A stretch of 35,677 nucleotides of DNA. Origin: a virus. The stretch spans positions 1 to 35,677 of the IMG/VR virus record IMGVR_UViG_3300030406_002290. One strand, written 5' to 3'. Below the pieces are notes generated by a model, which saw nothing but the letters and a program-made list of their open reading frames with translations, made no database searches and was not told the origin of the DNA. Below, in pieces: positions 3,378 to 33,153 of this stretch (the stretch's first letter is position 1; the number at the start of each line of letters is the position of its first letter). Both the position numbers and the translations under genes were made by a program.

Positions 3378-4399
3378 TATCTATCGTAAAGACTAATTCT
3401 TGTTGATGCGTTACTATATCCACTACCACCTTCACGTCCACCAAATTGTGCAGTAGCTATACTTCCTGCTTGTGTTGTTGAGTTACTTGAACCATTTGGA
3501 TAACTATGACTACCACCAGTTGACCAACTACCACCACTAAATAATTGCATAGTTGAACTACCAGTATAATTTTTTATAGTGTGATAATGGTCATTTTCAG
3601 TACCACCACCTACACCACCACTACCTGATGCTGGTGCATTGTTACTACCTACACTCCAATTTGCTCCATCAAAGGAATAATGTTTATTTATGTTACCTCT
3701 GCTACAACTTGTTGAATGAGTTGAATAGTAGCCACAACTTATTCTTAATGAAGCATGACTTGAACCACCACCAAATTGATAAGCAGGACCATAAACAGCA
3801 CCTATAAAATTTGCTTCTTCTGTCCAGCTAGCTTGATCCCACGACATGTGGTAATCAGCGTTCATATCGCAATTACCAGATGATGTACCACCTACAAAAG
3901 AAACATCACCTGCCGAAGTTCCATGTCCTGAACCACCTTGAAAATAAACTTTGCTAGGAGAAGCTATAGATGACCAACTTCCACTACCCATTTCATAAGC
4001 ACTATTACCTGAAACATAAGAACCACTACTTGTTCCACCACCTACAACAGCACTTGTTGCTCCACCAGCACCTGCCATAATGCCTGATATACCAATAGTT
4101 TGTCCAGAACCTATTGTGTCATTTACACCATCGTATTCTTCCTCATCATTTTCTCTATCTGATAAACCACCTGTGCCATTACCACCAATAATTGCCATAG
4201 CAGACCTTGCTGAACCTTGTGCTGAAAAAAAATTACTTCTAGCAGTATTAAGTGAATCACCACTTGCTGACCAAGTACCAGCAGATAAACCTGTAAACTC
4301 TAAGCCATTTAATTTAGCTATATCGTTGTCTGTTTTACCATTAAACTTTTCAATGGTAGTTATTTCTTTTGCATTTACTTTTTCTATTTCGTTAGCCAT
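3377..4399 (-). CDS. Gly/Ser-rich tail fibre or adhesin
   Basis: This 340-residue protein has a short N-terminal region (MANEIEKVNAKEITTIEKFNG) that looks like an attachment segment, followed by a long low-complexity Gly/Ser/Asn/Thr region with aromatic residues. Segments such as QGSARSAMAIIGGNGTGG and ATAQFGGREGGSGYSNAST resemble the repeats of marine phage fibre proteins with GG-turn, propeller-like or collagen-like surfaces. It begins MANE, as does the fibre gene just upstream, and starts at a TAATGGC junction. The probable role is receptor contact at the distal tail. Confidence is moderate because low-complexity sequence can mislead family assignment. Confidence 0.7.
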   Translation of the reverse strand: MANEIEKVNAKEITTIEKFNGKTDNDIAKLNGLEFTGLSAGTWSASGDSLNTARSNFFSAQGSARSAMAIIGGNGTGGLSDRENDEEEYDGVNDTIGSGQTIGISGIMAGAGGATSAVVGGGTSSGSYVSGNSAYEMGSGSWSSIASPSKVYFQGGSGHGTSAGDVSFVGGTSSGNCDMNADYHMSWDQASWTEEANFIGAVYGPAYQFGGGSSHASLRISCGYYSTHSTSCSRGNINKHYSFDGANWSVGSNNAPASGSGGVGGGTENDHYHTIKNYTGSSTMQLFSGGSWSTGGSHSYPNGSSNSTTQAGSIATAQFGGREGGSGYSNASTRISLYDR

Positions 4400-6660
4400 T
4401 ACGCATGCTCTATTTCATCTATACTTGGCATAATGAAAGCAGTATTTGCTGCTATTGCTACACCAATTCTTTGAACAATATCTCCATCTGCTGCTGTATC
4501 AGAAGCAGTTGTTGTTAATGCACCACTACTGCCTGTAATTATAATTGGAGAACCTGCTGAAAAACTATAAGTATCATCATGATAAATTCCTAGTGTTAGT
4601 ATTTGTACTGTTGCACCAGAACTAACTGAAGACATTGCAATTCCTATTGCAGGTTTACCTGTAACGCTACTAAAATCAACATCTGGGTGTTGTGCTTTAC
4701 CATTGCTGTCTACATATACTGCTTTACCCTCTGTTAAACTAGCACCAGCTTCCATTGTTATTGAAATACCATGACCAGAATGTTCATCTCCAAAGTCATG
4801 AGCTTCTGTAGAGCCACCAATTTTTATAACTTTTTGTTTTGATAAATTAATATCATCGTCAGCAGTAAAGCCACCAGTAAATGTAGCAGCCTGTGGGAAT
4901 GTAACTCCACCACCATCTGCTATTGTTAGTGCATTATCTCCGTCAGTAAAGTCAATCGTTGCTGTTTCCACTGAACCACTTACATCTAAATTACCAGCTA
5001 CACTAAGAACTCCATCTGCTAATGTCATTAAGTCTGTATCGTCAGTATGCCCAATGGTTGTGCCATTTGTAATTACATTGTCTACTGTAAGAGTAGTAAG
5101 TGTACCAACACTTGTTAAGTTAGACATAGAAGTTATCTCACTACCAAAATATGTAGCAAATGTTTCAACGCTAGTTTGTTTCATAGTGCCACCATCGTTA
5201 GTAACAATTCCATCTCCATCTGCTACTGCTGTTGTACCCACAGATGTATTACCATCCATAATATTAAGTTCTGTTGCAGTAGCGTCTACTGCTGCTAACT
5301 TAGTAAAGTCAGCTTGTACCAATCCTGATACACCATCAAGTAAATTAAGTTCCGTAGCAGTTGATGTAAGAGCTACATCTTCGTTTATTTTTGGTGATGT
5401 AAGCGTTTTGTTGGTTAGTGTTTGAGTTGTGTCATCACCAACTAAATTTGTAGCAGCAGCAGGTAATACTACTGTTACATTTCCAGAGTAAGCAGAGTGT
5501 GGTGATGCTTGTAATTGCGTGTAATGTGCGTTTGATGATTCACAGTAAAATCTTACATAAGACTCTGCACCTGCGTTCTTAATTGATATAGCACCTGACT
5601 CTATGTCTACACCATTAGAACCATCAATCCTTACTACACCTGTTCCGTGAGGTGTAAGTGCTATGTTTCTGTTACTAGCACCTGTTACTATTCCGTGTGT
5701 AAGTACATCTAAATCTCCACCAAGTTCTGGTGAAGTGTCCTCTACAACATTTGATATTGCACCTGATGTTGCTAAACCAGCTACGATAGCACTTCTAGAT
5801 ATCTTTTTCAAACCACCACCTGATGTGTCTACTGCTATGAATACATCATCATTTGCTACTGTAGATATTTCTGATAAATCACCAACTGCTGTTGATGCAA
5901 ATGAACTTCCATTGGCAACCAATAAGTTACCAGAAGTGTTTGTTCCCATAGCCAAAGCATCTGTATTTACTGTGCCATCAAAATAGGCATCTTTAAATTC
6001 AAGTGAGCTTGTACCTAAATCAACATCGTTGTCTGTAACTGGTGCTAAAGCTCCATCAATTAACTTGATTTGATCTGCTGCTCCTGCTCTAAATATAATA
6101 TTGTTATCTGTGCCAAAATCTATATCGTTATCAGCATCCCTACCTATTACAAGACTTGTGTTTAATATAGATGTAATTGCTGTTTCTGCACCACCAGTTA
6201 ATACTGCTGTGCCACCAACTGTAATTGCATCAGCTTCTAGTGTTCCATCAAAGAAACCATCTTTAAATTGTAGAGAGGATGAGCCTAAGTCTATGTCATC
6301 ATCTGTTACAGGTAATAATGCACCATTAGTAAGTTTAATCTGGTCTGCACCATCAGCTCTAAATAAAATTGTGTTGTCAGTTGCAAAGTCGATGTCATTG
6401 TCTGCATCTCTACCTACAACCAAAGCTGTGTTAAGAACAGAAGTTACTCCTGTAAGTGCTGCTGTCCATGCAGGTATTCCACTGCTTACTTCCAAAACTT
6501 TACCTGCTGAACCTATTGCTAGTTTTATTAACTGACTGCTTGAGCTAGCATATATTAAATCTCCAGTTGCTTGGGAGTCAAGAACGTGTCCTGTCGTAGA
6601 TTCATACTCAGTCTGTGATAGCTGAGAACCTACTGTTGAGTGTTTAAATTCATTTGCCAT
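4399..6660 (-). CDS. Tail fibre protein with duplicated 90-residue unit
   Basis: The 753-residue protein has a fibre architecture. The N-terminus (about 1-70) includes SQTEYESTTGHVLDSQATGD. Two copies of a unit (about residues 73-148 and 163-238, period 90) each contain VGRDADNDIDF, LFRA/IFRA..ADQIKL and a PVTD.D.DLG(S/T)SSL.FKD ending. The middle (about 410-520) carries LTNKTLTSPKINEDVALTST and two TATELN-type motifs, which are classic phage fibre-shaft sequences. The C-terminus is a compact domain (about 640-753) with GKAVYVDSNGKA and a repeat of hydrophobic strands, probably the tip. The likely role is host recognition. The call as a fibre is firm, while the receptor is unknown. Confidence 0.85.
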   Translation of the reverse strand: MANEFKHSTVGSQLSQTEYESTTGHVLDSQATGDLIYASSSSQLIKLAIGSAGKVLEVSSGIPAWTAALTGVTSVLNTALVVGRDADNDIDFATDNTILFRADGADQIKLTNGALLPVTDDDIDLGSSSLQFKDGFFDGTLEADAITVGGTAVLTGGAETAITSILNTSLVIGRDADNDIDFGTDNNIIFRAGAADQIKLIDGALAPVTDNDVDLGTSSLEFKDAYFDGTVNTDALAMGTNTSGNLLVANGSSFASTAVGDLSEISTVANDDVFIAVDTSGGGLKKISRSAIVAGLATSGAISNVVEDTSPELGGDLDVLTHGIVTGASNRNIALTPHGTGVVRIDGSNGVDIESGAISIKNAGAESYVRFYCESSNAHYTQLQASPHSAYSGNVTVVLPAAATNLVGDDTTQTLTNKTLTSPKINEDVALTSTATELNLLDGVSGLVQADFTKLAAVDATATELNIMDGNTSVGTTAVADGDGIVTNDGGTMKQTSVETFATYFGSEITSMSNLTSVGTLTTLTVDNVITNGTTIGHTDDTDLMTLADGVLSVAGNLDVSGSVETATIDFTDGDNALTIADGGGVTFPQAATFTGGFTADDDINLSKQKVIKIGGSTEAHDFGDEHSGHGISITMEAGASLTEGKAVYVDSNGKAQHPDVDFSSVTGKPAIGIAMSSVSSGATVQILTLGIYHDDTYSFSAGSPIIITGSSGALTTTASDTAADGDIVQRIGVAIAANTAFIMPSIDEIEHA

Positions 6661-24849: not shown

Positions 24850-25475
24850 TATAGATCCGGTGCAATAGTTGGTAGATCATCTTCTTCTTTTTTACTAAAA
24901 TCAGGAAGTCCGTCATCAACAATCAGTTCTGTGTTATCAATGCTGTGCCCTTCAAGTACACCCGGGCCTTCTTTTTGCTGATCAAAGTAATGTTTGATCT
25001 CTGGTCTTTCAGATACATTCTCTACGATATCCAGCATTCCTGCCTCTAAAATTAATTTAATCGCAAAGTCAGTGCCTGCTTTACCTTGTGCTTTAGCATC
25101 TTCTAGGTGCATAAACTGAATCATCGCTGCCTCTTGAGTATAGAGGGTATTTAATTGTGCAGTAGTAAGTCTTGAGTTTCTTTTACTCTGTGGTATTTCT
25201 GGATACGCACCTTCTTCTCTGTATTCTTGAAGTGCATCATAAAAATCTTGACACTGCTCAATCTGTTCTTTTAACTCATTGGCATCCCATCCAAACTCAT
25301 CACACATCTCCCTGAGTGCAGCATTACTAGATCCGTATGTACCAAGCAGTATATAAACCTTCCTAAGTCTTCTAGGCCACTGTTTCCAAGCAGGTAGTAC
25401 CTTGAGTACCCTTTTCTCAATAGCAGTAAACCCTGTACCTATTCTGGCAATGATCTCTTGTACATTAACTGGCAT
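24849..25475 (-). CDS. Terminase small subunit-like protein
   Basis: The 208-residue protein sits directly before TerL with a TAATG overlap. A likely helix-turn-helix lies near 38-75 (YGSSNAALREMCDEFGWDANE), as in small terminases that recognise the packaging site. The centre (85-165) is helical and could form the oligomeric ring. The acidic C-terminus (KKEEDDLPTIAPDL) may contact TerL. A strong SD (GGGGAG) precedes the ATG, which lies inside the end of the HNH gene (11-nt overlap). The assignment rests on position and HTH-like sequence. A sequence family is not certain. Confidence 0.75.
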   Translation of the reverse strand: MPVNVQEIIARIGTGFTAIEKRVLKVLPAWKQWPRRLRKVYILLGTYGSSNAALREMCDEFGWDANELKEQIEQCQDFYDALQEYREEGAYPEIPQSKRNSRLTTAQLNTLYTQEAAMIQFMHLEDAKAQGKAGTDFAIKLILEAGMLDIVENVSERPEIKHYFDQQKEGPGVLEGHSIDNTELIVDDGLPDFSKKEEDDLPTIAPDL

Positions 25476-25719
25476 ATCTTTTTCTTCTCCCCTCTCTTTT
25501 TAAATTAGTCTTAGCAGTAGATACTCTTAGATTAGATCTCTTGTTATTCCTAGGATTATTATCTTTATGATCTGCGTGCTTACCATCACCTACCTTTAGA
25601 CCAAGCATTCTTCTTGCAGCATTACGACTGGCTCTTTCCTTTGCTCTATTGGGCCTATTCTTCTTCTCCCACGCCAACTCTTTTTTATAATCTCTTTTTC
25701 CATTGGTCATAAATGGCAT
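25465..25719 (-). CDS. HNH endonuclease-like protein
   Basis: The 84-residue protein is very basic, with an HNH-type core at about 47-73: GKHADHKDNNPRNNKRSNLR followed by VSTAKTN. The Asp-His pair (D50, H51), NN (58-59) and NLR then N (63-65, 72) match the AP2/HNH_3-style pattern DH.d.n..NN...NL.v.t...N. The last metal ligand is Asn rather than His. Small HNH proteins beside terminase genes help DNA cleavage during packaging in other phages (for example HK97 gp74). Here the gene directly precedes TerS and overlaps it, which fits that role. A homing endonuclease is the alternative. Confidence 0.8.
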   Translation of the reverse strand: MPFMTNGKRDYKKELAWEKKNRPNRAKERASRNAARRMLGLKVGDGKHADHKDNNPRNNKRSNLRVSTAKTNLKREGRRKRYAS

Positions 25720-28053: not shown

Positions 28054-28311
28054 ATGAAAGAAACAAAAAGTGACGTAAAATGGAGATCTGTTGTAAGACA
28101 TAAAAATTTTATAGAAAATCTTTTTATTGACAATAGAATGCGTCTAACAAAACAAGTGGATAAATTACATGAAAGTAACAGCACTAATTACAACTCAATA
28201 GTAATTAATGATATTAAAAACACTATTAAAAGTATTGAAAAATATAATAAAAAATTATATTTAGCAAATTTAAAAACTAATTATGAAATAAATAAAGATA
28301 ATATTTTATAA
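28054..28311 (+). CDS. Early hypothetical helical protein (85 aa)
   Basis: The 85-residue product is Asn/Lys/Ile-rich and mostly helical, starting MKETKSDVKWRSVVRHKNFI. SD AAGGAG lies 8 nt upstream. Its codon use is strongly A/T-biased compared with the replication genes downstream, perhaps showing recent gain. No domain is recognised. Confidence 0.65.
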   Translation: MKETKSDVKWRSVVRHKNFIENLFIDNRMRLTKQVDKLHESNSTNYNSIVINDIKNTIKSIEKYNKKLYLANLKTNYEINKDNIL

Positions 28312-28328
28312 ACAAGAAAGGAGTAAAA

Positions 28329-28535
28329 ATGAAAGAGTATGAGATTGAGATACACATTACAGCAAGAAAAAAAGTAAAGATCAAGGCTCACACAGAAGTA
28401 CAAGCAATCGCAAGTGCTGAAGTAGATGTTGCTGAAATGCTAATGCAAGATGAAGAGTCAGGCAGAAATAAATATGTAGGTGCTGAAGTACAGATACCTG
28501 CAGAAACATATGAACTAGAATGGGAGCAAGAATGA
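28329..28535 (+). CDS. Early hypothetical protein ending in EQE, module 1 (68 aa)
   Basis: This 68-residue acidic protein has MKEYEIEIHITARKKVKIKA, a two-strand start, followed by a helix (EVQAIASAEVDVAEMLMQ) and the C-terminus YELEWEQE. The ferredoxin-like beta-beta-alpha pattern with EAIA-type helix is common in small phage proteins. SD AAAGGAG is 7 nt upstream. Its last codons (GAG CAA GAA TGA) overlap the start of the next gene as the first of five identical junctions. Confidence 0.7.
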   Translation: MKEYEIEIHITARKKVKIKAHTEVQAIASAEVDVAEMLMQDEESGRNKYVGAEVQIPAETYELEWEQE

Positions 28536-28684
28536 TTGAGTATTCTTACAAGCAAATTTGCAGGGAGTGTGTAATGTTTGGGGAATGTAGGGATTGCGAT
28601 AATTGTAATGGTGTAGGTCATACCGAAAGCACTTCGGTTGAATTACCTGATGATGCTTACGACATAGTAAAGGAGCAAGAATGA
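28532..28684 (+). CDS. Cys-rich small early protein, module 2 (50 aa)
   Basis: A 50-residue frame between two copies of the 13-bp junction, starting MIEYSYKQICRECVMFGECR and having five Cys (CREC...CRDCDNC) that could bind one or two zinc ions. It ends DIVKEQE. The TGA overlaps the next ATG (AATGA). It is about as long as other minimal phage zinc proteins that interfere with host transcription, but the function is unknown. The identical start and stop context of its neighbours supports coding. Confidence 0.7.
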   Translation: MIEYSYKQICRECVMFGECRDCDNCNGVGHTESTSVELPDDAYDIVKEQE

Positions 28685-28848
28685 ATATAAAGAAAAAATA
28701 TAAATGCACAGAATGTGGTAGTAAAAATGTATTTTACTCAATCATTGTGGATCAAAAACAAAATCAATTTGGTGGAGTTGATTTAGGGTATTGTTATGAC
28801 TGCCCAGATGATATTTCAAATGAAAAACTTTTAGAGGAGCAAGAATGA
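28681..28848 (+). CDS. Zinc-ribbon-like small early protein, module 3 (55 aa)
   Basis: A 55-residue frame with CTECGSKNVFYS near the N-terminus and GYCYDCPDD near residue 38. The Cys spacing C-x2-C (9, 12) and C-x2-C (38, 41) is that of a single zinc ribbon. It ends KLLEEQE. It is flanked by the 13-bp junctions. Zinc ribbons of this kind bind nucleic acid or proteins; the partner is unknown. Confidence 0.75.
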   Translation: MNIKKKYKCTECGSKNVFYSIIVDQKQNQFGGVDLGYCYDCPDDISNEKLLEEQE

Positions 28849-29042
28849 GTGATCTATCTAAGCTAACAATTTATAGAGTTCAGTATTGGGATGAAGAAAC
28901 CAATGAGGTCTATGAACTTACTCATAAAGCAGATGTAGTAGAAGTTGATGCAGAAGAAGTGATGAGTGTATTTACCTCTGACGGAATTGAAACAACTGAT
29001 GAATTAATAAAACTAGGAATGATGAGAAAGGAGCAAGAATGA
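28845..29042 (+). CDS. Acidic small early protein, module 4 (65 aa)
   Basis: This 65-residue acidic protein starts MSDLSKLTIYRVQYWDEETN and ends LGMMRKEQE. It has a beta-strand start (TIYRVQYWDEETNEVYELTH) and a helical end. It begins and ends in copies of the GGAGCAAGAATGA junction. Its acidity would suit DNA mimicry or protein binding. No family is recognised. Confidence 0.7.
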   Translation: MSDLSKLTIYRVQYWDEETNEVYELTHKADVVEVDAEEVMSVFTSDGIETTDELIKLGMMRKEQE

Positions 29043-29221
29043 AAGATAGTGGATGGATAAAGATAAAAGACTTTGATAATAGTCATCAAGAATTATTAGA
29101 AGATTTTACAGATGTGCTTGATGAAATGGGGATAAAAGTTTCTTGGGATACTGATACTAAATTGTGGCGTGATAATGGTTATGATGCAGTAGTATACATA
29201 GAAAGAAAGGAGCAAGAATGA
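29039..29221 (+). CDS. Acidic small early protein, module 5 (60 aa)
   Basis: The 60-residue acidic protein has MKDSGWIKIKDFDNSHQELL, a helix (EDFTDVLDEMGIKVSWD) and a C-terminal strand (DAVVYIERKEQE). It is flanked by two junction copies, the upstream one sharing 18 bases with the downstream one. No domain is recognised. Confidence 0.7.
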   Translation: MKDSGWIKIKDFDNSHQELLEDFTDVLDEMGIKVSWDTDTKLWRDNGYDAVVYIERKEQE

Positions 29222-29496
29222 TTTGGTACAAGATAACTGAACGCAATGGTAATTATGAGTACACTCATAGATACTTTATGGAAGGAGATATTGAAGAGTA
29301 TGAAGGCACGAGAGAACAAGATGAGATTATCTTAAAACATTTTTATGGAGTAGAGTCACTTAATTATGATAGGACTGATAGAGCATGGTGGTTGCATGGA
29401 GAATGTTTGGTAAGTGTAGATGGAGTTGCAGAGTATGATGATGATGCACAAGCGTTGCATAAAATTTTAAATAAAAAACTAAACGGATTACTATAG
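29218..29496 (+). CDS. Acidic small early protein, module 6 (92 aa)
   Basis: This 92-residue protein starts MIWYKITERNGNYEYTHRYF, with many aromatic and acidic residues (YFMEGDIEEYEGTREQDE). A Trp/Cys part (AWWLHGECLVSVDG) follows. It starts in the fifth junction copy but ends differently (NKKLNGLL), so it closes the modular array. The function is unknown. Confidence 0.7.
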   Translation: MIWYKITERNGNYEYTHRYFMEGDIEEYEGTREQDEIILKHFYGVESLNYDRTDRAWWLHGECLVSVDGVAEYDDDAQALHKILNKKLNGLL

Positions 29497-29508
29497 AAAG
29501 GAGTAAAG

Positions 29509-29667
29509 ATGTACGGAGTTGAGAACTCACACTTCAAGTTTTATGAAACTGACAAGTTCATAGATGAAGTATTGAAAGAGCAGAGTCCAATAGACAAGCT
29601 CAATCAAGCAAACGCACAGCAGTTCAACAGAATTATGACTGAGATAGCTGCTGAAAAATTAACATAA
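29509..29667 (+). CDS. Early hypothetical protein (52 aa)
   Basis: A 52-residue frame, starting MYGVENSHFKFYETDKFIDE, helical and acidic to neutral. SD AAAGGAG is 7 nt before the ATG (the common GAAAGGAGTAAA leader also seen before 28329 and 31023). No neighbour overlaps it. No family is recognised. Confidence 0.65.
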   Translation: MYGVENSHFKFYETDKFIDEVLKEQSPIDKLNQANAQQFNRIMTEIAAEKLT

Positions 29668-29685
29668 CAATAGAAAGGAAAAGAA

Positions 29686-29934
29686 ATGACAGAAAAATAT
29701 TACAAAGATAAAACAAGATGGAGATGGAAAGATTGGAAAGTAAACTTTGAAATTACACATATTGACGGAGAGGTATACACCTTTGAGGAGGATGATTTAT
29801 CAGAGTCTGACAGAATAAAACTCATGACCATAATTGAAAACTATCTTAGATACGGAGGAGCAGAAGATGATCGGCCCGATACACCGGACACAGATAGTAT
29901 CGCAGAAAGAAACTATGAGAACAGGAAAACATAA
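29686..29934 (+). CDS. Early hypothetical protein (82 aa)
   Basis: This 82-residue protein starts MTEKYYKDKTRWRWKDWKVN, a basic aromatic head, followed by an acidic centre (EVYTFEEDDLSESDRIKLM) and a charged tail (DDRPDTPDTDSIAERNYENR). SD AAAGGA is 8 nt upstream. Its TAA overlaps the next ATG (TAATG). The split of charge is notable. The function is unknown. Confidence 0.65.
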   Translation: MTEKYYKDKTRWRWKDWKVNFEITHIDGEVYTFEEDDLSESDRIKLMTIIENYLRYGGAEDDRPDTPDTDSIAERNYENRKT

Positions 29935-30155
29935 TGGGTAAATACAAAGAAAGCGACTTAGACAAGTACGTTAGAAGCCTCATGGCAGATGAAATAATAG
30001 ATAACTACAAAGGTGCATGGGCATACGCAACCACTGACCAACTGATTGAAGAATTAGAAATCGTTTACAGATTGGGTGTCAAAGGCGTAGAGAATATGTG
30101 GTACGAAGAACTTAAAAGAGAACTTGAAGATCAGAAAGGAGACCATAATGAGTAG
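29934..30155 (+). CDS. Early hypothetical protein (73 aa)
   Basis: The 73-residue protein starts MGKYKESDLDKYVRSLMADE and is helical and acidic, ending LEDQKGDHNE. It is coupled to the upstream gene by TAATG and overlaps the following start by 8 nt. No family is recognised. Confidence 0.65.
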   Translation: MGKYKESDLDKYVRSLMADEIIDNYKGAWAYATTDQLIEELEIVYRLGVKGVENMWYEELKRELEDQKGDHNE

Positions 30156-30333: not shown

Positions 30334-30473
30334 AAGACGAGACCCCTAAGTAGAAAGGTTGTTAGTTGATAGGATACACGAGAGGTAGTGCGATATATCA
30401 CTTGTGAGGAGTTGATACGAGAATAGATATGTAGAATACAGATGTGAAATCCCTAGTAACACAGTAAAAAACA

Positions 30474-30523
30474 CGTTTCGGGTTGGCATGGATTGTTGAA
30501 ACGCATTATCCCTTCCATGCCAA
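30474..30523 (+). other. Pseudoknot-like leader structure
   Basis: CGTTTC (30474-30479) pairs with GAAACG (30498-30503), and TTGGCATGGA (30483-30492) pairs with TCCATGCCAA (30514-30523). The order a-b-a'-b' is that of an H-type pseudoknot, or of two competing hairpins. Loops are 3, 5 and 10 nt. The element ends 32 nt before ATG 30556, leaving the SD (AAAGGAG) accessible. The rest of the gene-free stretch 30334-30473 has a direct repeat AGTTGATA (30364, 30410) and no ORF. Confidence 0.55.
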
Positions 30524-30555
30524 GAATAATAACTTTAGTTAGAAAGGAGAAAATA

Positions 30556-30750
30556 ATGGATGAAGTAACTTATACATCAAAAGAAGATCACCTATTACAT
30601 GGTGCGATACTTTTAATAGGATCTTTGGTGGCATCTATAATGGATGATGATTTACATGGAAAAGCTATCTATGATGGCAATCAGCAAATTATCAATGATG
30701 CTATTGAGTTTTATAAAAAGCATCGTGAAAAATATCCAAGCCTCACTTGA
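30556..30750 (+). CDS. Early hypothetical protein with a hydrophobic segment (64 aa)
   Basis: I choose ATG 30556 because AAAGGAG is 7 nt upstream; a frame from 30493 would begin inside the structured leader without SD. The 64-residue product starts MDEVTYTSKEDHLLHGAILL and has a moderately hydrophobic stretch (AILLIGSLVASIM) that could be a membrane or buried helix, followed by an acidic-basic helix. The promoter 5 -35 overlaps its stop. It may be controlled by the pseudoknot-like leader. No family is recognised. Confidence 0.65.
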   Translation: MDEVTYTSKEDHLLHGAILLIGSLVASIMDDDLHGKAIYDGNQQIINDAIEFYKKHREKYPSLT

Positions 30751-31816: not shown

Positions 31817-32236
31817 ATGAAAAAAGAAATAGAAAAGATGACTAACGAAGAACTTGCTAGTCTACACGCAGAGCTTGTTGAGGCAAAGCGTGAGATAGAA
31901 GGTAAGTTAAATCCTATCAAGGTAGCATTGCTACGCAGGATGGATGAGACCGGTGGAGATGCTCTGCCAGTTGAAGGGTTCAATGTGTCAAGGAAGATGA
32001 CTTGGCAGTATGATCCCAAGAGTTTGATGGCAGCTCTCTACGGAGAGGTCAGGCTTATCTCTGATGAAGAGTTGGCCAAGCTAATCAAACAGATACCACC
32101 AATGATGAAAGTTGATGGTACGACTGCAAGGTCTTTGATTAGTAAGTATGGGCTTGGATCTAAAGTCCATGAAGCAATAGAAAAAAATAGGGATGGCAAG
32201 TCAGTCATTCTTAAAGTTGAAAGGAGTGATCAATGA
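31817..32236 (+). CDS. RecT-operon hypothetical protein (139 aa)
   Basis: The 139-residue protein has an N-terminal coiled-coil segment (EELASLHAELVEAKREIEGK) followed by an alpha/beta part (EVRLISDEELAKLIKQIPPM) and a short C-terminal strand region. It ends in an ATGA overlap with the RecT-type gene, so the two are likely translated together. Partner genes of phage annealing proteins are often exonucleases or Gp157/Gam-like accessory proteins. This one is too short and lacks nuclease residues, so an accessory or regulator is more likely. SD AGGAG precedes the ATG. Confidence 0.7.
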   Translation: MKKEIEKMTNEELASLHAELVEAKREIEGKLNPIKVALLRRMDETGGDALPVEGFNVSRKMTWQYDPKSLMAALYGEVRLISDEELAKLIKQIPPMMKVDGTTARSLISKYGLGSKVHEAIEKNRDGKSVILKVERSDQ

Positions 32237-33153
32237 ATGATCCAAAGGCGTTAATGATGTGGGGAGAGATGGCAAGTCATAGTGGGCTTGCAAAGAACAT
32301 GAATGCTTACCAAGCAGGCATGATAATACAGGCAGGTTCTGAGCTAGGCTATGGGCCTGCAGCTTCACTGAACTGCTTTTACATAGTCGGTCACAAGGTT
32401 ACACCACTAGGTCAGACCATGGCTGCTATGATCAAAAAGTCAGGCAAGTACACATACAAGGTGCTCAGGAGCAATGATGAGCTTGCTGAGATTACCTTCA
32501 TGGAGAAAGATGGAGACAGCTTTCAGGAGCTTGGCACTGTGTCATTCGGTAAGAAAGATGCAGCAATGGCAGGTCTAGGTGGAGATGCTTGGAGAAAATA
32601 CCCAAGTAATATGTTCTTCTGGAGATGCCTATCCAAAGGTGCTAGGATGTTCTGTGCTGATGCAATGATGGGCATGATATACACACCTGAAGAACTAGCA
32701 GACCAACTGCCTCAAGGTGTAGAGGTAAGTATCGATGAAGATACAGGCGATCAAGTGATTGTTGATACTAGAGACAATGTAGTTCCACCTGCACCTCAGA
32801 TACCTGAGACTGCAAGTGAAGACTTCTCGCAACAGGACAATCATATGCAGGCAATGAGTCAGCCTGCAGATAAATCTACATTTAAAGGGCCTCATAAAGA
32901 AATGGTTTTAGAAATAAAAGATGAAAGTAGCATTGAAGAGCTTAAGGCAGCAGGTGTTACTAGAATGTTTACTGAATCTGACTACGGGGAAGTTGTAATG
33001 ATTGTAGGTAAAAACAAGGGCAAAACTGTAGATGAGTTGCAAGATAGTTACTTTAACTTTTTTAGAAAGGATATTGAAGCTGGCAATTTTGCACCGAATA
33101 CACTTAAATTCTTCAGAGCAAGATTAGAAAGGATAGATGATAATGGCGAATAA
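32233..33153 (+). CDS. RecT-family single-strand annealing protein
   Basis: The 306-residue protein promotes annealing of complementary single strands in phage replication and recombination. Residues about 23-66 (NAYQAGMIIQAGSELGYGPA; FYIVGHKVTPLGQTMAAMIK) and 104-155 (SFGKKDAAMAGLGGDAWRKY, then SKGARMF and MGMIYTPEELAD) match the RecT/RedB pattern of an A....AGl..k..W..YP..M...R..S...R....d...G..YTPEEL core. The C-terminal third (about 165-300) is a divergent, acidic linker followed by a small domain. No adjacent 5'-3' exonuclease partner is visible. Host or phage PD-(D/E)XK nuclease might supply resected ends. Confidence 0.85.
   Translation: MNDPKALMMWGEMASHSGLAKNMNAYQAGMIIQAGSELGYGPAASLNCFYIVGHKVTPLGQTMAAMIKKSGKYTYKVLRSNDELAEITFMEKDGDSFQELGTVSFGKKDAAMAGLGGDAWRKYPSNMFFWRCLSKGARMFCADAMMGMIYTPEELADQLPQGVEVSIDEDTGDQVIVDTRDNVVPPAPQIPETASEDFSQQDNHMQAMSQPADKSTFKGPHKEMVLEIKDESSIEELKAAGVTRMFTESDYGEVVMIVGKNKGKTVDELQDSYFNFFRKDIEAGNFAPNTLKFFRARLERIDDNGE

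Follow-up and report, generated by a model that had tools for sequence, protein, structure and literature searches.

The region around positions 28523-29221 of an uncultured tailed phage is probably a cassette array of translation-coupled genes, shuffled at SD/stop/start joints whose sequence is copied or homogenised. The DNA comes from the virus record IMGVR_UViG_3300030406_002290, whose whole analysed stretch of 35,677 nucleotides we call the window.

A 13-bp word joins six small genes

The joint is the 13-mer GGAGCAAGAATGA, present in five exact copies on the + strand: at 28523..28535, 28672..28684, 28836..28848, 29030..29042 and 29209..29221. Within 28523-29221 only 0.01 copies are expected, and none of 100 shuffles reached five. 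No further exact copy exists outside this interval in the whole record. Allowing two mismatches adds only GGAGTAAAAATGA at 28320, which is an SD/start, and one in-gene match; the other early genes of the window do not have the word.

Six ORFs of 50-92 aa, all on the + strand, are chained by the five words. The left outer gene (28329-28535; 68 aa, MKEYEIEIH..LEWEQE) is followed by four cassettes: a Cys-rich protein of 50 aa ending in YDIVKEQE (28532-28684), a protein of 55 aa (28681-28848), an acidic protein of 65 aa for which the family search gave no family (28845-29042) and a protein of 60 aa for which it gave no convincing one (29039-29221). The right outer gene (29218-29496; 92 aa, MIWYK..) closes the row. 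The 55-aa protein was called a zinc ribbon in an earlier note on this DNA: it does have the CxxC..CxxC pattern, but its Pfam match to zf_Tbcl is weak and below the cut-off (E 0.08), and we keep to "zinc-ribbon-like".

Read in the frame of the upstream gene, all five junctions give xxG-GAG-CAA-GAA-TGA, that is E-Q-E-stop. GGAG always lies 5 nt ahead of the ATG, and stop and start overlap as ATGA. At copy 1, for instance, one stretch holds the SD, the EQE codons and TGA of gene 28329-28535, and the ATG of gene 28532-28684. The earlier description of five identical stop/SD/start junctions joining six genes, each using the same bases for all these roles, is thus accurate. With the SD inside the upstream ORF and the stop/start overlap, we infer that translation may be coupled across the junctions.

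The borders of the 13-mer are sharp. In 29 copies from 11 contigs, a count in which the 13 word positions are exact by construction, the flanks carry a near-random 0.1-0.6 bits per position; the exceptions are A at -1 (1.3 bits) and T at +14 (1.0 bit). The record IMGVR 3300030451_003333, from another sample and 98.9% identical to the window, has five copies at the same spacings, which makes an assembly error unlikely.

Among the genes of the array no mutual similarity is detectable at E 0.01, in agreement with the earlier claim that the proteins between the copies are unrelated; the common tail therefore does not reflect detectable shared protein ancestry. Codon-position tests show a third-position excess in two gene families of the related arrays described below, SQDTR and LIDDLGW, which supports coding. 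On the outer genes the same tests are uninformative or inverse: there is no third-position substitution excess among close relatives (e.g. 11/9/5 at positions 1/2/3 between the window and contig G011), which, in small numbers, suggests fast or diversifying protein evolution.

Relatives carry different genes between the same joints

Two contigs, G010 (3300030102_002557) and G011 (3300030372_002305), share both outer genes with the window; G011 was found via its RecT gene and not via the word. Amino acid identity to the window is 78-85% for the left outer gene and 84-93% for the right one, and their DNA is 88-97% identical. None of the genes in between is the same; the window has four cassettes there, G010 and G011 three each. 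Homology on the left ends at 28537 in both comparisons, at junction copy 1, and restarts on the right at 29202 (G010) and 29200 (G011) in window coordinates, at junction copy 5. G011 has two exact copies of the 13-mer and one variant. G010 keeps the 13-mer before the right outer gene, though the preceding gene stops with TAA upstream of the word. With outer genes in common, these relatives have other inserts between the same words, and the comparison shows that genes were replaced, lost or gained at borders that coincide with joints.

Individual cassettes also turn up in other surroundings. A distant contig, G013, shares with G010 a 33-aa Cys-rich cassette; the match is 116 bp long and 94% identical, starts at the first base of one 13-mer and extends 5 bp beyond the next, with unrelated neighbours on either side. 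The first cassette of the window (YDIV) has a homologue between 13-mers in G007, a member of a second, related clade (clade B). The TEEIRT/EDKY family is represented twice in G004 and once each in G001 and G019. G004 holds two paralogues of one cassette (58% aa identity) with another cassette between them, and its match to G019 (92% over 179 bp) ends 12 bp after the first base of a 13-mer, with different genes beyond. The earlier note had proposed a search in relatives for conserved 13-mers that enclose different genes. Exactly this is seen when the window is set against G010 and G011, for the 33-aa cassette shared by G010 and G013, for the YDIV cassette that the window shares with G007, and between G004 and G019.

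All these contigs are metagenomic fragments, and most of those with arrays were fetched by the exact word, so that its conservation is inflated and partly ascertained.

Arrays with other words and other tails

In contig G021 (3300025097_000996), two copies of GGAGCAAGAATGA are followed by five of GGAGAACGCATGA, and the tails encoded by GGAGAACGCATGA read -ENA. These five copies lie at 4381-5150 of locus L177 (38381-39150 of G021), adjoining the two copies of the window's word. The SQDTR gene of G010 and the LIDDLGW gene of G011 carry GGAGCAAGAATGA there; their homologues in G021 carry AACGC words. Likewise, the words on either side of the 33-aa gene are CAAGA words in G010 and G013, and GGAGAAAAAATGA, an AAAAA word, on either side in G019. 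The tail of the gene changes along with them, from SKEQE in G010 and G013 to SKEKK in G019, which bears out the earlier suggestion that the EQE tail comes from the junction and not from protein descent.

These comparisons show a word that is identical within an array and differs between arrays, even for one gene family. As judged from sequence, the word belongs to the array and not to the gene; it would therefore be copied or homogenised at gene exchange or cassette duplication.

As a control we used GGAGAAAGAATGA, a one-base variant of the word. It yielded arrays of 2-4 copies in other phages, in 8 contigs compared with 10 for the 13-mer and with the same spacing range: there are thus arrays built on different words, and nothing sets the 13-mer itself apart. 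Loci L181, L182 and L183, from unrelated phages, have arrays of 3-4 GGAGAAAGAATGA copies with -EKE tails. The L182/L183 array includes a tRNA-like stretch. At the end of L183 (contig G030) a cassette is repeated exactly over 114 bp from its word onwards, a duplication that may be an assembly edge.

Homology breaks at gene starts

Of the 39 alignment ends in the entire early region, 20 fall within 15 nt of a gene start, against 4.0 expected. Breaking at starts is thus a general property of these phages, of which the 13-mers are the most regular form. The cassette-array claim of the earlier note holds in that different genes do lie between constant 13-mers; the 13-mer is, however, not the one exchange site, as breakpoints are concentrated at gene starts of all kinds and the words differ in other phages.

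A recent change at one joint can be followed between G021 and G023. On the left, the two contigs have 4 differences in 3000 positions. They diverge inside the word (GGAGAA/CGCATGA vs GGAGAA/ATAATGA, with the slash at the point of divergence), after which G023 has a different gene and intergenic DNA. Over its first 230 bp or so, the gene that follows differs by about 9% between the contigs, which are then nearly identical over 900 bp. By these alignment limits one border falls in the joint and the other about 230 bp inside a homologous gene. A mixed mode seems likely here, with a short joint used on one side and ordinary homology on the other.

Possible mechanism of exchange

We propose that the array consists of very small, translationally coupled early genes for which the 13-bp word would act as a compact joint. 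A gene placed between two words would receive its own stop and the next start in frame, and any inserted gene would get the same SD spacing and ATGA overlap. While phage DNA replicates, misaligned SD/start joints would most likely undergo exchange through annealing or illegitimate recombination, with help from the homology of neighbouring genes. Selection would then retain recombinants that leave every gene translatable. Exchange of this kind, homogenisation of the word and selection for translatable products are all put forward on the pattern of matches, and some observations weigh against the scheme: breakpoints appear outside the words as well, and the diverged tract of G021/G023 has its right end inside a gene and away from any word.

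The window encodes a RecT-like ssDNA-annealing protein of 306 aa (32233..33153, + strand; PHROG 561, E 2e-12; PHROG 4171, E 7e-6), which its PHROG 561 match places among phage SSAPs. It is a possible actor in the exchange. Phage recombinases tolerate diverged DNA, and the minimal pairing length of Red-beta is 23-27 bp (PMC3945230). The words provide 13 bp of shared identity, and matches reach 20-22 nt at some junctions of other arrays; with 13 bp below the published Red-beta minimum, RecT is no more than a candidate.

Alternative explanations

The word could be a product of selection for translation alone: a very good SD with an ATGA overlap would be reached independently at each junction, exchange would happen anywhere, and only breaks between genes would survive. 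We find this rather unlikely. Single copies of the 14-mer AGGAGCAAGAATGA do occur in more than 120 viral contigs, so the word is a common RBS junction that can arise by convergence; 72 of 80 sampled copies have a downstream ORF and 39 of 80 are at stop/start overlaps. The clustering of breakpoints at all gene starts, beyond the 13-mers, fits this reading too. Yet the function does not fix the five spacer bases, and among the GGAGN5ATGA sites of the group, in contigs selected by the word, 23 of 47 have CAAGA and no other spacer occurs more than three times. Moreover, two words share one array in G021 (2x CAAGA, 5x AACGC), homologous genes adopt the word of their array, and three or more identical junctions were seen in 0 of 79 contigs fetched only for one copy of the 14-mer, which indicates that the array phenomenon is not general. 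At L166, L170/L171, G003 and G005/G009, unrelated by DNA, the word has 2-3 copies each that may be independent or due to chance; in L170 a real ORF follows only one of three copies.

Repeated tandem duplication of a gene with its junction, after which the genes diverged past recognition while the junctions stayed unchanged, is quite improbable. Duplication itself has left traces: the two recognisable paralogues in G004, two adjacent genes of L187 with the same N-terminus and upstream sequence, and the 114-bp second copy at the possible assembly edge of G030 (L183). In the window array, however, the cassettes have no detectable similarity to each other. Homologues of the cassette families sit elsewhere in other phages and beside different words, so the families predate the array. 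Identical junctions alongside whole-gene divergence would also need a further cause.

An operator reading is very improbable. A phage or host RNA-binding protein, or a small RNA, would set the translation of all array genes through the word, and swapped-in genes would acquire the local word. The sharp 13-nt borders, the identity within arrays and the different words of different phages are compatible with it, and an unexplained 13-bp start-associated repeat has been proposed as a possible binding site (PMC3203893). Against it, the remaining early genes of the window have no such word, two words stand side by side in G021, and the word is almost wholly SD, spacer and stop/start, coinciding with neither an inverted repeat nor an Rfam family.

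That the C-terminal tail common to all array proteins of one phage (EQE, ENA, EKE or EKK) is a selected protein tag, e.g. for stability, is extremely unlikely, as one protein changes its tail with the array (SKEQE vs SKEKK) and G010 keeps the word before the right outer gene although the preceding gene has already ended.

The cassette array shuffled at its joints is thus the reading we retain. A bolder version of it, which we think unlikely, would be gene capture at the level of translation without an integrase: the phage- or array-specific word would be actively maintained by recurrent recombination, by gene conversion or as the operator of a dedicated translational regulator. If true, any gene inserted in such an array would at once be terminated, started and regulated.

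Relation to known systems

How tiny phage early genes are taken in and ordered is an old debate, which opposes short shared boundary sequences to random illegitimate exchange followed by selection. The joints described here are short and precisely delimited, they recur and are specific to the array, and one gene can be found with different joints in different phages; the debate thereby becomes testable by sequence comparison and simple recombination assays. Identical GGAG-N5-ATGA words in a row also offer a search key for cassette arrays.

PeSLs are promoter plus stem-loop terminator elements between genes. They form promoter-terminator cassettes that undergo modular shuffling in T4-type phages (Arbiol 2010 and Comeau 2014, cited in PMC4503421). 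The likeness lies in a short repeated regulatory element between small ORFan genes and in gene shuffling among related phages; here too, different small genes lie between conserved elements (window vs G010/G011; G010 vs G013). The repeat of the window differs in being 13 bp, without promoter or terminator, in overlapping the coding ends of both genes and in setting translation. A promoter/terminator reading was rejected, as 28300-29700 has no + strand promoter or terminator and the words no inverted repeat.

A second parallel is the SAS of cluster K mycobacteriophages, a 13-bp word, GGGATAGGAGCCC, found in 11-19 scattered copies 3-7 bp before a start (PMC3203893). Both are 13-bp, one-orientation, GGAG-containing repeats just upstream of different small non-structural genes, the window having five + copies at starts of different gene families. 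In the available text of PMC3203893, however, the SAS is not described as including ATG or stop, both of which the window word includes, nor is array-wise switching of words described for it. The window has no match to GGGATAGGAGCCC at up to two mismatches and a single site with three, fewer than chance.

With Rad52-like/RecT phage recombinases, which allow relaxed exchange between diverged phages (PMC3945230), the window has its RecT-like gene in common; the difference is one of length, minimal pairing by Red-beta taking 23-27 bp (PMC3945230) where the segment shared here may be only 13 bp. Integrons likewise array exchangeable genes between constant short sites, but the window junctions are without attC-like inverted repeats and no site-specific recombinase is linked to the array. 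With no inverted repeat at the 13-mers and no integrase among the proteins scanned, a part of the ORFs, the integron reading was rejected. An RNA-family reading was also set aside, as no Rfam family coincides with the junction word. The general kind of arrangement is already known, from T4 PeSLs and the mycobacteriophage SAS; the in-frame stop/start form and the array-specific words appear to be new.

Beyond the group, no DNA similarity to the window was found in the phage collection or plasmids, and among the matches listed the identity of its terminase to known phages does not exceed 30%. The Roseobacter phages CRP-2, CRP-9 and CRP-603 have a homologue of one cassette family, and no repeated words were found in their small-gene regions. 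Prokaryote genomes gave one pair of 13-mers, in a Microcoleus contig, within a repeat without an ORF of useful length.

Other features of the early region

An HNH endonuclease gene (PF13392, E 1.4e-7; 25465-25719, - strand) lies between the terminase genes and the early region of the window, and G011 has an extra stretch inserted right beside it. About 220 bp of the window, 30334-30555, hold no obvious gene between 30333 and 30556 and are absent from G010 and G011, the alignment resuming at 30747. Finally, at 29869-29936, the 3' end of a gene and the next start (..DRPDTPDTDSIAERNYENRKT-TAATG) form a 68-bp segment whose conservation with G010 and G011 is 88-97%; upstream of it, the body of the gene cannot be aligned between the window and G011, at least. 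The segment has the look of a constant joint, only longer and with a tail in common.
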